A stretch of 45,089 nt of DNA from a virus: positions 1 through 45,089 of the IMG/VR virus record IMGVR_UViG_3300025012_000159; one strand, given 5' to 3'. Both the position numbers and the translations under genes were made by a program. The notes beneath the pieces are model-generated. The model had not been told where the DNA came from and did no database searches. It saw only the letters and a list, made by a program, of their open reading frames with translations. This document shows, in pieces, positions 1 through 45,089 of this stretch (the first letter of the stretch is position 1; each line of letters opens with the position of its first letter).

Positions 1-306
1 GTAGCCGGTATTCCTGTCGCCGGTATTCCTGTAGCCGGTATTCCCGTCGCCGGTATTCCTGTCGCCGGTATTCCCGTCGCCGGTATTCCTGTAGCCGGTA
101 TTCCTGTAGCCGGTATTCCCGTCGCCGGTATTCCCGTTGCCGGTATTCCCGTAGCCGGTATTCCTGTCGCCGGTATTCCTGTAGCCGGTATTCCCGTCGC
201 CGGTATTCCTGTCGCCGGTATTCCCGTTGCCGGTATTCCCGTCGCCGGTATTCCTGTAGCCGGTATTCCTGTAGCCGGTATTCCCGTCGCCGGTATTCCT
301 GTCGCC
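1..306 (-). repeat. 15-bp in-frame minisatellite, left part (20 full units plus a partial one)
   Basis: Twenty perfect-length 15-bp units fill 1-300, and a six-base partial unit follows. Thirteen of the fifteen bases are invariant. Only base 3 (a/c/t) and base 15 (c/t) vary. In the coding (minus) sense these are first codon positions, giving Y/D/N and R/G. The six-unit block in window units 10-15 is the same as the last unit of the window plus units 1-5, so the array shows a 90-bp higher-order repeat across the cut. Confidence 0.97.
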
Positions 307-648
307 GAACTTCACTTCTTCAAGTATTTCGATCTCAGCGCAGACCATTTTAAAATCCGCTCCCGGTTCAAATGGAGTATCAAGAACATCGTAGGCGCGA
401 ACTTTGAACACTTTACCGGTTGAGTAGTAAGCCCACACCCCTGAAGGTTGAGGGCAAAAGTGGAAGCCGTTCTTGCACAGTTCCAGCGCGTTACTATTGG
501 GTAACTTGTTCCGACCCATCTGAAACTGAAAAGTGTTTTTGTTAGGGCTGCACGTCATGTCTTCATTGAATATCTTGTAGCCGTCAATCGGTCCCGGTAG
601 TAAATTTTGCTGTGATCTCATATTCCCCCCTATCATTGTATTATTCAT
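1..648 (-). CDS. Pentapeptide-repeat protein, N-terminal part (gene continues at the other end of the window)
   Basis: The reading frame enters from position 1 without a stop and continues in frame at 45089 to a TGA at 44709-44711. On a circle it makes a protein of about 342 residues. The first ~115 residues form a non-repeated domain with a Cys-containing KNGFHFCPQ stretch, like the N-terminal domain (annotated DUF7666 in recent databases) that precedes GN-type repeats in phage and bacterial proteins. Then come pentapeptides of the form [R/G]-N-T-G-[Y/D/N], an xNxGx repeat predicted to form an elongated beta-helix-like rod. Start: ATG at 648 overlaps the upstream TGA and has GGGAG 8 bases before it. 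ATG at 621 behind a G-run is the alternative and would give 333 residues. Function unknown; an adhesive or surface-like rod is inference. Confidence 0.8.
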   Translation of the reverse strand, partial: MNNTMIGGNMRSQQNLLPGPIDGYKIFNEDMTCSPNKNTFQFQMGRNKLPNSNALELCKNGFHFCPQPSGVWAYYSTGKVFKVRAYDVLDTPFEPGADFKMVCAEIEILEEVKFGDRNTGDGNTGYRNTGYRNTGDGNTGNGNTGDRNTGDGNTGYRNTGDRNTGYGNTGNGNTGDGNTGYRNTGYRNTGDGNTGDRNTGDGNTGYRNTGDRNTGY

Positions 649-941: not shown

Positions 942-1148
942 TCATTTAAGTAGTTTTGCCGCCTCAACTCCCAACGCTTCAGCTAACCTCTTGATGCTGG
1001 CCAAAGAGACGTTCTTTCCTTTTTCAGCCTTCCAGATAACTCCCATACAAACACGGTGTCCTTTTTCTGCGGTAAGGTCTGATAATTGCTGCATTGTCAA
1101 CAGTCGTTGCTCTCGTATCGCTTTCAGATTTACCAATGCTTTACTCAT
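942..1148 (-). CDS. XRE/Cro-C1-type helix-turn-helix regulator
   Basis: A 68-residue single-domain HTH_3 protein: QQLSDLTAEKG and GVIWKAEKGKN form the typical helix 2/helix 3 region, followed by SIKRLAEALGVEA, the family's helix 4-5. AAGGAGG precedes the ATG with good spacing. It is the first gene after the terminator at 1262-1291 and has its own promoter at 1171-1200, so it probably controls itself and the downstream minus-strand operon. There is no integrase nearby, so calling it a lysogeny repressor would go beyond the evidence. Confidence 0.85.
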   Translation of the reverse strand: MSKALVNLKAIREQRLLTMQQLSDLTAEKGHRVCMGVIWKAEKGKNVSLASIKRLAEALGVEAAKLLK

Positions 1149-23625: not shown

Positions 23626-24032
23626 TGTACCGTCCTCCTGAATGGGAAACTGTCGGGAGGAAACTGTTCAACGAGGTCATGGGTTTTCTTCAGGAGTGCG
23701 GCGGTCCTTATAAGGAGATTGAAGGCTACGTTCAGGAACACGTCATCTCCTGTCTCGCTACGGGACAGTTTCTTTACAGCAAAGATAGATATTTCGTCTG
23801 CTGGTGGCTGGTCACAAAAGAAGGCTTAAAGGATATTGAAAACCACCTAAGACCGGACGTTCTGACCAATGGGGAGATTATGTATATCCCCGAATGTGGA
23901 GTGAAGGAAGGCATGACGGAACTAATAAGAAGAATCCGCAAGAAAGGCAACAAGGGTGTCCACTGGCACCGTTCGGGAAAAGGCTGGAAAAACTACCCGT
24001 CGCAGAAAGGGGGATTTTATGGGCTCAAATAG
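23625..24032 (+). CDS. Conserved podophage protein, GNAT-like (135 aa)
   Basis: YFVCWWLVTKEGLKDIENHL, GEIMYIPECGVKEGMTELIR and VHWHRSGKGW followed by YPSQKG resemble a family found between fibre and ejection genes of podoviruses, related to acyltransferase folds. Enzymatic activity is not shown. Its end overlaps the start of the N/Q-rich gene. Confidence 0.55.
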   Translation: MYRPPEWETVGRKLFNEVMGFLQECGGPYKEIEGYVQEHVISCLATGQFLYSKDRYFVCWWLVTKEGLKDIENHLRPDVLTNGEIMYIPECGVKEGMTELIRRIRKKGNKGVHWHRSGKGWKNYPSQKGGFYGLK

Positions 24033-26547
24033 TACAAGTCAAACCAGTAAGCCGTTGACCCCTGAACAGCAGACGGCAGCGTATAATGCTTCACTGAAAG
24101 GAGTTTTCGGGAACGATATTTTCAACTCCCAGACAGACCCGAAGACCGGCAAGGTAACTCAGTCGGTTGATTACTCCAAACTTCAGACCGCCATGCCGCA
24201 ATACCAAGCATCGAACTATGTCGGTTCTGACAATATAATGTCTCCCGACTATCTGGCACCGGCGCTGCAAAACGACTATCAGACCAATTATAATATGCAA
24301 CTGGCGCAGAACTACGTAAAGCCGGAAGCAAACCCTTCAGCGCAGCAGTCAGGCTTTTCGTCTCTTAACATGACTCCCTACGGTAACGCGCAAACATCAG
24401 CCAACGTCGCAGCAAAAGGATTTGATTACGGTCAGGCGGCTACCGGCATAAACCAAACCTCAGCTTTGGGTGATTACGGCAAGGTGACGAATGCCGATGC
24501 AGCGACAGCCTCAGTCGGGAATTACGGCCAGTCAGCGCAGAGCCAAGCGGCAAACGCCGCGCTAGGCAACTATGGCGCAGTGGAAAGAGTAGATGGAGAA
24601 AAGGCCACCGCCAAAACAGGTGATTACGCCCCTGTTTCTCAAGCGGCTAACGTAAATTACGCTCCGGTAGCTCAGTCTTCGGCTACGCAGGCAAATGCAA
24701 CCCAAGCGAATACGGGTAACTTTGCCCCTGCCGAACGAGCAGCCACAGCTCAAGCTGAGTTTGCCAACTACGCTCCTGCCAGCCAAGCACAGTCTGGATG
24801 GTCGCTTTACAATCAAGCCCAACCCTTTGCAGGATCTCAATACGTCGATTCCGGACAAGGCAAAAGCCTCACAGGGCAGGATTACGACGCCCTTCAGCAG
24901 CAACTCACATCGGGGTATCTTGCGCCTATTCTGGCCCAAAGAGACAAGGATGTAGCAGGGCTTGACGAATCACTTGCTGCTCGTGGCATCTACAGCAGCG
25001 GCCTTGCTGAAAGGGACCAGAACGCTCTCAAGGGTGAGTACGCCGCAACCATAGCAAATGCCGCTGCAAACGCTACCAACCAACGGTACTCTTTACAGTC
25101 CCAAGAGCAGCAGGCGATGAACAATTACGCCCTTCAAAGAGCAGCGGGGGCTAACTCGGCAAACCAGTTCAACGCTTCGGGACTCAACAATTATAATCTC
25201 CAAAACACCAACGCTCAGAACAGTTTCAATCTCTCGACCGATGCTCAAAAGGCGGCTCTGGCTCAGTTCAACACAGGGCAGGAAAACGCCTATAACACAA
25301 ATATCGGCAATGCTCAAAACGCGTGGAGTCAATTCAACGCCGGTAACGCTAACAACATGAATCAGTTCAACGCCGGAAACCAAACGGCTTACAATCAAAA
25401 CGTGGGTAATCAGGAAACGGGCGTGAATCTCCAAAATGCCGGGGCGCAGAATCAGGTATCACTTGCCAATGCTTCCGCTCAAAACCAAAACTCCATGTCT
25501 AACGCTGCAGCCCAAAACGCCTACAACCAGAATATTGGTAATCAGACCGGGGCTAATAACCAGTTCAATGCACAAATGGCAAACGCCTACAACACCAATA
25601 CAGGCAACCAGCAGACTGCGATAAACCAGTTCAATGCGGGTAATCTCTCGCAGGCCGGACTTGCCAACGCCCTTGCCGCCAATAGCTACAACCAGAACAT
25701 CGGCAATCAGCAGACGGCGTTGAATCTTGCCAACGCGCAGAACCAGACGCAAAACTCGCAATTCAATGCCGGGGCGCAAAATGCATGGAATCAGAACGTC
25801 GGCAATCAGCAAACCGCAATAAGCCAATTTAACGCCGGAAACCTTACTCAGACCGGACTTGCCAATGCTTTGGCATCAAACACCTTCAATACTAATGTCG
25901 GCAACCAGCAAACGCAAAATAATCAGTTCAACGCTCAGAACGCAAATCAGATGTCGCAATACAACGCAGGACAGGTGAATGCCTACAATCAAAACGCCGG
26001 AAATCAGTACAACAATATGTCACAGTTCAATGCCGGAAATGCTCTACAGAATAATCAGTTTAACGCCGGTACTCAAAACTCATGGAATCAAAACACTACG
26101 GGTCAGACCAATCAATTCAACCTTGCACAGCAGGCGGCAGGGCTGCAAAATAATCAGTTCAACGCATCTCAGGGCAACGCCTATAATCAGGCTATGGCTC
26201 AGTTAAATTCGCAAAACGCGCAAAACCAGAATCAATTTAATCTGGCGAGTTCGGACCAGTACAACCAAAATATGCTGAACAATGCGAATCTTTACAACAC
26301 GACTCTCAATACGCAGAACCAGAACTCCATGAACGCGGCAAATGCTCAAAATGCCTGGGGCTTGAACGCTGCTCAGGCTTTTAACCAAGCGAACCTTGCT
26401 AATTCATCGGCACAGAATCAGTTCAACTTGACGCAAGATCAGAATCAGTTTGCGGCTAACTGGAAACCGGTTGAACAGCTCTCCGGTCTTTACACCGGCA
26501 ACGCCGGGACTATCTCAACCTCAACAGGCGGCGGGTGGAGCATATAA
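24019..26547 (+). CDS. N/Q-rich repetitive virion protein (842 aa)
   Basis: AGGGGGATTTT precedes ATG 24019, within the end of the previous gene. The first third carries imperfect repeats with G(N/D)YG or NYAP. The last ~450 residues are Asn/Gln/Ala-rich repeats built on QFNAGN, AYNQN and GNQ(Q/E)T at roughly 11-residue spacing. A region between (LAARGIYSSGLAERDQNALKG is typical; key GIYSSG) matches a motif of podophage ejection-type proteins. Likely an internal or tail-needle component; prion-like composition is striking. Confidence 0.6.
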   Translation: MGSNSTSQTSKPLTPEQQTAAYNASLKGVFGNDIFNSQTDPKTGKVTQSVDYSKLQTAMPQYQASNYVGSDNIMSPDYLAPALQNDYQTNYNMQLAQNYVKPEANPSAQQSGFSSLNMTPYGNAQTSANVAAKGFDYGQAATGINQTSALGDYGKVTNADAATASVGNYGQSAQSQAANAALGNYGAVERVDGEKATAKTGDYAPVSQAANVNYAPVAQSSATQANATQANTGNFAPAERAATAQAEFANYAPASQAQSGWSLYNQAQPFAGSQYVDSGQGKSLTGQDYDALQQQLTSGYLAPILAQRDKDVAGLDESLAARGIYSSGLAERDQNALKGEYAATIANAAANATNQRYSLQSQEQQAMNNYALQRAAGANSANQFNASGLNNYNLQNTNAQNSFNLSTDAQKAALAQFNTGQENAYNTNIGNAQNAWSQFNAGNANNMNQFNAGNQTAYNQNVGNQETGVNLQNAGAQNQVSLANASAQNQNSMSNAAAQNAYNQNIGNQTGANNQFNAQMANAYNTNTGNQQTAINQFNAGNLSQAGLANALAANSYNQNIGNQQTALNLANAQNQTQNSQFNAGAQNAWNQNVGNQQTAISQFNAGNLTQTGLANALASNTFNTNVGNQQTQNNQFNAQNANQMSQYNAGQVNAYNQNAGNQYNNMSQFNAGNALQNNQFNAGTQNSWNQNTTGQTNQFNLAQQAAGLQNNQFNASQGNAYNQAMAQLNSQNAQNQNQFNLASSDQYNQNMLNNANLYNTTLNTQNQNSMNAANAQNAWGLNAAQAFNQANLANSSAQNQFNLTQDQNQFAANWKPVEQLSGLYTGNAGTISTSTGGGWSI

Positions 26548-31111: not shown

Positions 31112-31399
31112 ATGCCCGAATCGTATTATATCGCACATCCTGACGTTGTAACTGCCGCGATAAAATTTCTGTGTGCAACGGTATTCACTACCGGAGGGGC
31201 TTTAATTGGGACACTGCTTTATATTTGGCATAAGACGGACGGCAGAATCGCCACAATGGAAGTTACGATGGGCCGAATGGCGACAAGTCTTGAAGAACTT
31301 AAAACCAACACGGCCACCGAATTAGCTGGTGTGAACGGAGATATAAAGGCAATGAAGCAACTGTGTGATGAAAGACATCCACGGAAGGAGGGGAAATGA
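31112..31399 (+). CDS. Lysis-region membrane protein with coiled coil (95 aa)
   Basis: One membrane segment (FLCATVFTTGGALIGTLLYI) lies near residue 25 and is followed by a predicted coiled coil (RIATMEVTMGRMATSLEEL). AAAGGAGGGGAGTAC precedes the ATG. It overlaps the endolysin gene by ATGA. It could be a holin, antiholin or i-spanin-like protein; no lipobox partner was found. Confidence 0.6.
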   Translation: MPESYYIAHPDVVTAAIKFLCATVFTTGGALIGTLLYIWHKTDGRIATMEVTMGRMATSLEELKTNTATELAGVNGDIKAMKQLCDERHPRKEGK

Positions 31400-31908
31400 A
31401 TAACCGTGACTTGCTGAAAAGGTTTGTTGATATCGCTCAAGCTGAAGTCGGTGTTCGTGAAGTCGGCGGTAATAACTGCGGCGACCGTATCCGAGAATAT
31501 CAGTCTGCTACTTGGCTTGCACCGGGAGCATGGCCGTGGTGTGCGGCTTTCGTGGCATGGTGCCTGAGGGAATGGTTGCAGGAGGAAGGCGTTGCCGATG
31601 CGCTAAAACTCCATTCGTTGTCTGCATGGCGCTGCCGTGACGCTTCCGCCTTCGGGTGGGAGAAGTGGGCGAAGGCGAACAAGCTAAAAGTCCTGACTGA
31701 AACTGAGAAGGCTAAAGCCGGCGACTTGGTTATCTTTGATTTCTCGCATATCGGGATTGTTGCCGAAGATCAACATGGCGACTTCATCAAGACAATTGAG
31801 GGCAACACCAACGGCAAAGGCGAACGGGACAGCGTTTCCGGTGACGGGGTATGGAACAAGATCCGTCAACAGGCATTGACCAAATGCTACATTCGGTTGT
31901 TGGCATAA
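31396..31908 (+). CDS. CHAP-domain endolysin (170 aa)
   Basis: Cell-wall amidase/endopeptidase for lysis. The catalytic Cys is in WPWCAAFVAWCL (about residue 49), His in DFSHIGIV (about 118), and the third residue in TIEGNTN (about 135-138). Single domain without signal peptide, so it needs a holin for release. It sits between two small membrane-protein genes. Confidence 0.85.
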   Translation: MNNRDLLKRFVDIAQAEVGVREVGGNNCGDRIREYQSATWLAPGAWPWCAAFVAWCLREWLQEEGVADALKLHSLSAWRCRDASAFGWEKWAKANKLKVLTETEKAKAGDLVIFDFSHIGIVAEDQHGDFIKTIEGNTNGKGERDSVSGDGVWNKIRQQALTKCYIRLLA

Positions 31909-44635: not shown

Positions 44636-44712
44636 CCCTTCCCCCTTTTCATGAAACAGGCCATTGCCACCAGACCGAATACAGCCATGCAAATGATAGG
44701 AACGTACCTCAT
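44572..44712 (-). CDS. Small membrane protein (46 aa)
   Basis: The ATG overlaps the TGA of the repeat gene (TCATG on plus). RYVPIICMAVFGLVAMACF is a membrane segment. Its C-terminal half overlaps the coiled-coil gene by 64 bp, so the real protein may be short. Confidence 0.45.
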   Translation of the reverse strand: MRYVPIICMAVFGLVAMACFMKRGKGWQGDVMNQECQIPARSLTRR

Positions 44713-45089
44713 GGTTTAGCCTTCCTAGCCGCGATATGTGATTCATGCAGCTTTTTTATCGCCTTCTCGGTGGCATTCGGGATAGATAAAAACGGTGTTG
44801 GGTCAATAGGCTCATCCGAAATAAGCAGATCGGACAGCCTGTATACTAGATTCCACGGGATATCATCTCGTTTTACTTTAGTTATCTTGTTGAACAGGTA
44901 AATGGGGGCTTCACCATAGTTGAGGCTTCCACTGTGGAAGTCGCCGGTATTCCCGTAGCCGGTATTCCTGTCGCCGGTATTCCTGTAGCCGGTATTCCCG
45001 TAGCCGGTATTCCTGTAGCCGGTATTCCTGTAGCCGGTATTCCCGTCGCCGGTATTCCTGTCGCCGGTATTCCCGTTGCCGGTATTCCC
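44709..45089 (-). CDS. Pentapeptide-repeat protein, C-terminal part
   Basis: Continuation of the gene at 1-648. Ten more 15-bp units are followed by degenerate pentapeptides (DFHSG, SLNYG) and IYLFNKITKVKRDDIPWNLV, a C-terminal cap resembling the FNKP-W block that follows such repeats in related proteins. The frame at 45089 matches that at position 1. Stop TGA 44709-44711. Confidence 0.8.
   Translation of the reverse strand, partial: GNTGNGNTGDRNTGDGNTGYRNTGYRNTGYGNTGYRNTGDRNTGYGNTGDFHSGSLNYGEAPIYLFNKITKVKRDDIPWNLVYRLSDLLISDEPIDPTPFLSIPNATEKAIKKLHESHIAARKAKP
44940..45089 (-). repeat. 15-bp minisatellite, right part (10 units)
   Basis: Ten full units, same consensus and the same two variable bases as at 1-300, ending exactly on a unit boundary. 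The window ends share no identical long overlap, so the ends look like an arbitrary cut in a circular contig, and true copy number is uncertain. Confidence 0.95.

Follow-up and report, generated by a model that had tools for sequence, protein, structure and literature searches.

The window analysed here is the whole 45,089-nucleotide viral record IMGVR_UViG_3300025012_000159, a 45-kb tailed-phage record encoding capsid, portal-like, helicase, PDDEXK and MazG proteins. Its capsid and terminase resemble those of known phages at low identity only, and no relative of the terminase was found in IMG/VR viral contigs. Arrays of 15-bp units occupy both ends of the record, 20 units at the left and 10 at the right, as the original prediction had described. 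The two stretches are in phase and represent halves of one minus-strand gene (621..1 / 45089..44709), in which the 15-bp periodicity is kept across the join and a single frame stays open from the start at 621 to the stop codon at the 44709 end. The segment at 1-306 that had been singled out is a real array, but it belongs to only half of this gene.

The 5' part of the gene (1..621, minus strand) carries the N-terminal domain and the first 20 units and runs off the left end. A GGGGGG Shine-Dalgarno-like run, read directly from the sequence, precedes the ATG at 621, and a start at GTG 669 would give a longer frame that is likewise open. The encoded protein begins with a DUF7666 domain (PF24703; 307..585; hmmscan E 6e-16, 59.2 bits against a cut-off of 27), followed by a degenerate half unit, GDR (298-306), and then by 30 NTGxx units. 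Units 1-20 lie at 1..297, except for the last three bases of unit 20, which are found at 45087-45089; the end of unit 20 and units 21-30, the last reading NTGDF, occupy 44937..45089; and a C-terminal tail (HSGSLNYGEAPIYLFNK...AARKAKP) with the stop codon follows in the same frame at 44709..44936, all on the minus strand. This tail resembles that of L018, the closest relative. The protein also matches Pentapeptide_2 (PF01469) over the curated cut-off (131.3 bits against 26.4, E 1e-38) and the PHROG 14105 profile (E 3.3e-54), a PHROG without assigned function. Unit phase and internal order are kept across the join, as would be expected of a circular or circularly permuted phage genome. The longest exact repeat, 107 bp with copies 150 bp (10 units) apart, spans this join; since the record ends within its second copy, copy number and unit order at the join are provisional.

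The neighbouring upstream gene (942..1148, minus strand) encodes a small HTH_3 (XRE-like) regulator (Pfam E 6.9e-5). Cultured phages carry related genes: Salmonella phage ES18 gp53 and Barbavirus gp041 ("pentapeptide") likewise combine an N-terminal DUF7666 domain with an array of short units having two variable residues, in a phage accessory gene. In ES18, the early left operon contains gp53, flanked by a P22 gene-24-like antiterminator on one side and cIII/kil/erf-like genes on the other, and by analogy the window gene would be an accessory phage protein, probably expressed early. A role as an anti-phage defence protein was also considered and set aside, as no PADLOC defence model matched the window protein at E<=1.

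Within the array, the codons AAT-ACC-GGC are invariant in the 29 regular units, to which the claim of identical N-T-G codons in 30 units applies. Variation in units 1-29 is confined to nucleotide 10 (G13/T13/A3) and nucleotide 13 (A15/G14), both first-codon positions as predicted; the edge unit, NTGDF, departs from this two-position rule with TTC. The regular units comprise nine YR, seven DG, six DR, four YG and three NG, while unit 30 is DF, which lowers the count of R from the reported 16 to 15. The six-unit order noticed earlier (DR-DG-YR-DR-YG-NG) does recur, at units 6-11 and 16-21, inside the 107-bp exact repeat. The pairing of N exclusively with G holds in the three units concerned, two of which sit in the duplicated block, but as a rule it has a chance probability of about 0.10, given that 14 of 29 units have G. 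Counted as events, the window array shows about three non-synonymous changes against zero synonymous, an outcome expected by chance at about 0.15-0.2 and not significant alone; statistical weight therefore comes only from the family.

Profile scans recovered 80 viral and 47 genome loci with DUF7666, among which 67 distinct NxGxx arrays were recognised and 60 arrays entered the diversity test. The backbone codons of these arrays differ widely from one array to another (ACC, ACA, ACG, AGC, AGT, TCA and others; GGC, GGT, GGG, GGA) and are nearly fixed within each, a pattern that is concerted evolution. At residue 4, N, D, H and Y predominate, and at residue 5, R, W, C, S, Y and G; some within-unit pairs are favoured (NR, 191 against 127 expected; DW, 119 against 84) or disfavoured (DR, 49 against 118). 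Arrays range from 3 to 35 units, and unit order along them is random at short lags. In many relatives the contig breaks off within the array (L020, L033, L037, L048, L082, L093, L105, L109, L113, L116 and others), so that short-read assemblies systematically undercount the units. Downstream of many NxGxx arrays, the C-terminal tail has a conserved motif, LPNFDxxxFxEITGI (tails of L023-L134). No functional report on DUF7666 phage proteins was found in the literature searched, and the family is both widespread in phages and unstudied.

Arrays gain, lose and swap units in blocks, and unit order and number change faster than the flanking domain. The near-identical relatives L018 and L019, with flanks 99.6-99.7% identical, differ by exactly 10 units, and L076 and L078 differ by 6, although assembly collapse could contribute to these differences between metagenomic records. 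Together with the absence of synonymous variation and the duplicated 107-bp block in the window, these exact blocks bear out the proposed recent expansion. Among Rheinheimera Barbavirus isolates, 110 of 115 match the query gene at >=99% and most share one identical array; the variants examined show replacement of NR by DW, DQ/NQ exchange, and loss or gain of a single unit. All of these array differences are non-synonymous, and one synonymous change was seen in the tail. In Salmonella phages whose domains are 94-95% identical, with half of the domain differences synonymous, arrays contain 3, 11 and 22 units, and their letters differ. Only near-identical phages retain the same unit order; by about 95% domain identity it has disappeared, and it is reshuffled even between relatives with domains about 90-95% identical. 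Such block gain, loss and swap homogenises the backbone codons of an array.

Residues 4 and 5 always escape this homogenisation. Across the 60 NxGxx arrays, mean πN at these positions is 0.299 against a πS of 0.123 (medians 0.28 and 0.057), and πN exceeds πS in 54 of 60 (Wilcoxon p 7e-10), a count over partly related arrays that are not fully independent; after collapsing by backbone haplotype, the excess persists in 22 of 27 (p 4e-5). Minimum-change steps amount to 269 non-synonymous and 69 synonymous, where 57% non-synonymous would be expected, and πN extrapolated to πS=0 is 0.256 (s.e. 0.010). None of the NxGxx arrays has πN<0.1, although short-read assembly may hide homogeneous ones. In six of the 60 arrays, all diverged, πS>=πN, as expected if diversity at residues 4 and 5 is reached early and then saturates. 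Many synonymous differences, the observation that the original prediction had named as refuting it, are limited to six arrays that look old. A control gene of the MPTR type from Mycobacterium riyadhense gave πN ~ πS in most runs, with a broad residue set at both positions. These statistics show, across the family, that selection acts on the protein to maintain several types of unit in each array; the predicted selected variation of a two-residue surface is supported at this level and not by the window array alone.

The same behaviour extends to other repeat backbones. Where DUF7666 loci lack an NxGxx array, they have short units of other kinds, in which two positions (in some cases three) vary; these include 9-residue (NTGxxSAAT and SATGxxGAA types), 8-residue (TAGxxGAA) and 6-residue units (GVNxSx, AVxxSx and VAxSxG). 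Whereas the window array is built of NTGxx with only Y/D/N and R/G, many DUF7666 relatives have 9-residue units of the NTGxxSAAT type, in which residue 4 largely predicts residue 5 (MI/minH 0.70). Enterobacter plasmid pE76_003, for instance, contains 27 core units in which seven of nine codons are invariant (codon types per column 1,1,1,3,2,1,1,1,1), with a πS of 0, a πN of 0.375 and three letters, NR, YR and DY; ten further arrays from isolates or complete plasmid records resemble this pattern. Letters in cultured phages include NR, DY and YQ in Pseudomonas phi2, DQ, NW and YQ in ES18, and YC, DC, DR, DW, NR and others in SEN22. Different arrays occur on near-identical heads in cultured ES18, Barbavirus, and Pseudomonas phages phi1 and phi2. 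Overall, DUF7666 heads were seen with at least four unrelated short repeat types (L055, L059, L079; 8/9-residue arrays of L041-L144).

An AlphaFold2 (AF2) model gave pLDDT values mostly of 60-94 for the DUF7666 domain, while the array was modelled at about 40, with regular short strands. PF01469 repeats have been predicted to form a beta-solenoid with two pentapeptides per 10-residue coil (PMC9663297), a fold on which four methods agree, although AF2 over-predicts solenoids for near-perfect repeats (PMC11795689). No solved structure matching by sequence was found. Searched against BFVD, the DUF7666 model (m8949617c15e2) returned low-E-value matches among further phage proteins and repeat proteins of giant viruses; on these modelled structures, a DUF7666-like fold may serve viral repeat arrays generally as a head. 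These matches include some RIIB-annotated phage proteins and giant-virus ankyrin/DUF4116 repeat proteins; Pfam did not find DUF7666 in T4 RIIB. For an ADP-ribosyltransferase fold of DUF7666 there were weak structural hits only: the top Foldseek matches in the PDB were to Arr, at a non-significant E of 0.27-1.4, and a profile test of DUF7666 against a single Arr sequence matched nothing.

Several known systems resemble these arrays in part. TAL-effector repeats are near-identical DNA units with a repeat-variable diresidue, made of alpha-helical units of about 34 residues (33-35) that bind DNA by a known code, one base per unit. Two adjacent variable residues are common to both systems, but DUF7666 units have 5-9 residues and are probably beta-structured, making this an analogy of design only. 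The coding minisatellite of PRDM9 zinc fingers combines rapid unit turnover with positive selection at recognition residues (PMC3890296); these are vertebrate zinc fingers without homology to DUF7666 arrays. Mycobacterial PPE-MPTR proteins (Pentapeptide_2, PF01469) share NxGxx units with the window and undergo cassette duplications (PMC4858275). Unlike them, the window protein has no PPE domain, only DUF7666 and Pentapeptide_2 passing the cut-offs, and the many residues at positions 4 and 5 and the πN ~ πS of the M. riyadhense MPTR gene differ from what DUF7666 arrays show.

Neutral turnover, in which arrays expanded recently from few units and residues 4 and 5 are merely unconstrained, would agree with the evident block duplication, with the six old arrays, and with the window array, which does not reject it. 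Across the family, however, simulated neutral unit turnover left πN<0.1 in 93% of low-πS arrays, whereas none of 16 such NxGxx arrays was observed in that state, nor any of 43 when all unit lengths were pooled using the two most variable columns per array, a choice that inflates πN. Drift with recent expansion is rejected for the family by these simulations and by the diversity ratios, including the excess of non-synonymous steps, and we regard it as improbable. Diversity-generating retroelements are a source of localised non-synonymous variation in phage proteins, and a mutational mechanism of this or another hotspot kind directed at both codons would account for variation at nucleotides 10 and 13 in nearly all young arrays. 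As had been noted, the record lacks a reverse transcriptase (no RVT_1 match at E<=1, with positive controls). Adenine-directed mutagenesis would also strike nucleotide 11, yet this adjacent A and both A of AAT are invariant in the window units. Even 10-fold and 30-fold hotspots leave 41% and 16%, respectively, of simulated low-πS arrays with πN<0.1, and Barbavirus isolates differ by exchange, insertion and deletion of whole units. The targeted variation that the original prediction had entertained is consequently very unlikely. Equally slim are the prospects of chimeric short-read joining as the source of order and variation. The record does end in a 107-bp exact repeat and many relatives' contigs end inside the array, but misassembly, while able to alter copy number or order, could not generate five clean unit types. 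Arrays of this kind in cultured phages and complete plasmid records exclude a metagenome artefact, and with it read errors. Selection for DNA stability through the breaking of perfect repeats was discarded, as it would favour synonymous variants equally.

The explanation we favour, and hold to be somewhat probable, is that a DUF7666 head carries a narrow beta-solenoid array and a tail, with a backbone evolving in concert and an exposed diresidue kept diverse, probably for modular binding. On the basis of the PF01469 predictions, two NTGxx units would most likely form each 10-residue coil. Recombination of units by block gain, loss and swap homogenises the backbone, while selection on the protein retains several residue 4/5 types in every array. 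Residues 4 and 5 may then line the exposed solenoid faces and make up a modular surface that binds a variable target of host or phage origin, and unit shuffling could alter binding while the fold stays intact. Against this account stand the low array pLDDT together with the AF2 solenoid bias, the lack of a sequence match among solved structures, the six arrays with πS>=πN, homogeneous arrays that short-read assembly may hide, the incomplete independence of related arrays, and a random-looking order not conserved between relatives, which a bulk surface property would also fit.

Within this framework, a more specific proposal, which remains tentative, is that a small diresidue alphabet (NR, DY, YQ, DW and others) provides modular recognition, in which every unit would contact a single element of a polymer. 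Under that proposal, nucleic acid, glycan or host protein would be candidate targets, unit recombination would rewrite specificity, and the arrays could be a beta-solenoid counterpart in phages of TAL-effector or PRDM9 arrays. A fixed order code was rejected, since unit order is not conserved; of the two-residue code once suggested, maintained diversity is upheld by the family and a fixed code is doubtful. A less probable alternative is that the array is only a soluble spacer or rod: selection would then retain mixed polar, charged and aromatic units because they aid solubility or prevent self-stacking, recognition would not be sequence-specific, and unit order would carry no meaning. Random order at short lags and its loss between relatives, the variable length, and the favoured NR and DW and disfavoured DR pairs are all compatible with such a rod. 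Both properties sought in the NxGxx arrays were nevertheless missing and were dismissed: there is no lag-2 avoidance of the kind expected of a solenoid stacking order, and no charge balance, as array net charge is not near zero and the fractions of D and R (fD, fR) are uncorrelated. Moreover, a spacer needs neither a residue 4 that is mostly N, D, H or Y nor the linked diresidue letters of the 9-residue arrays.

The favoured solenoid reading gains its interest from the evolutionary footprint. Homogenised repeats in which only the presumed contact residues are diverse are the mark left by modular recognition arrays such as TAL effectors and PRDM9, and here the footprint recurs in phages of Firmicutes, Bacteroidetes and Proteobacteria, on unrelated 5-, 6-, 8- and 9-residue backbones attached to one head domain. 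The pattern suggests a phage binding module that has so far gone unrecognised. Should a ligand be found, it could expose a rapidly evolving phage-host interaction and provide a repeat scaffold that is both very small and designable.

No homologue of the Salmonella DUF7666 gene was detected in the E. coli genome set (ecoli_genomes). Members of the same family are annotated as "putative ADP-ribosyltransferase" in Acinetobacter phages and as "c-type lectin precursor" in Salmonella phages, and these labels, at loci L185 (1453-2490), L174 (1201-2346) and L145 (2013-2672), are unproven. Elsewhere in the window, a TIGR02594-like protein, perhaps an endolysin, is encoded at 31396-31908 (plus strand) with 35 bits, under the curated cut-off, and a large N/Q-rich structural-region protein at 23956-26547 (plus strand) contains degenerate NxFNAGN / NxYNQNxGNQ repeats.
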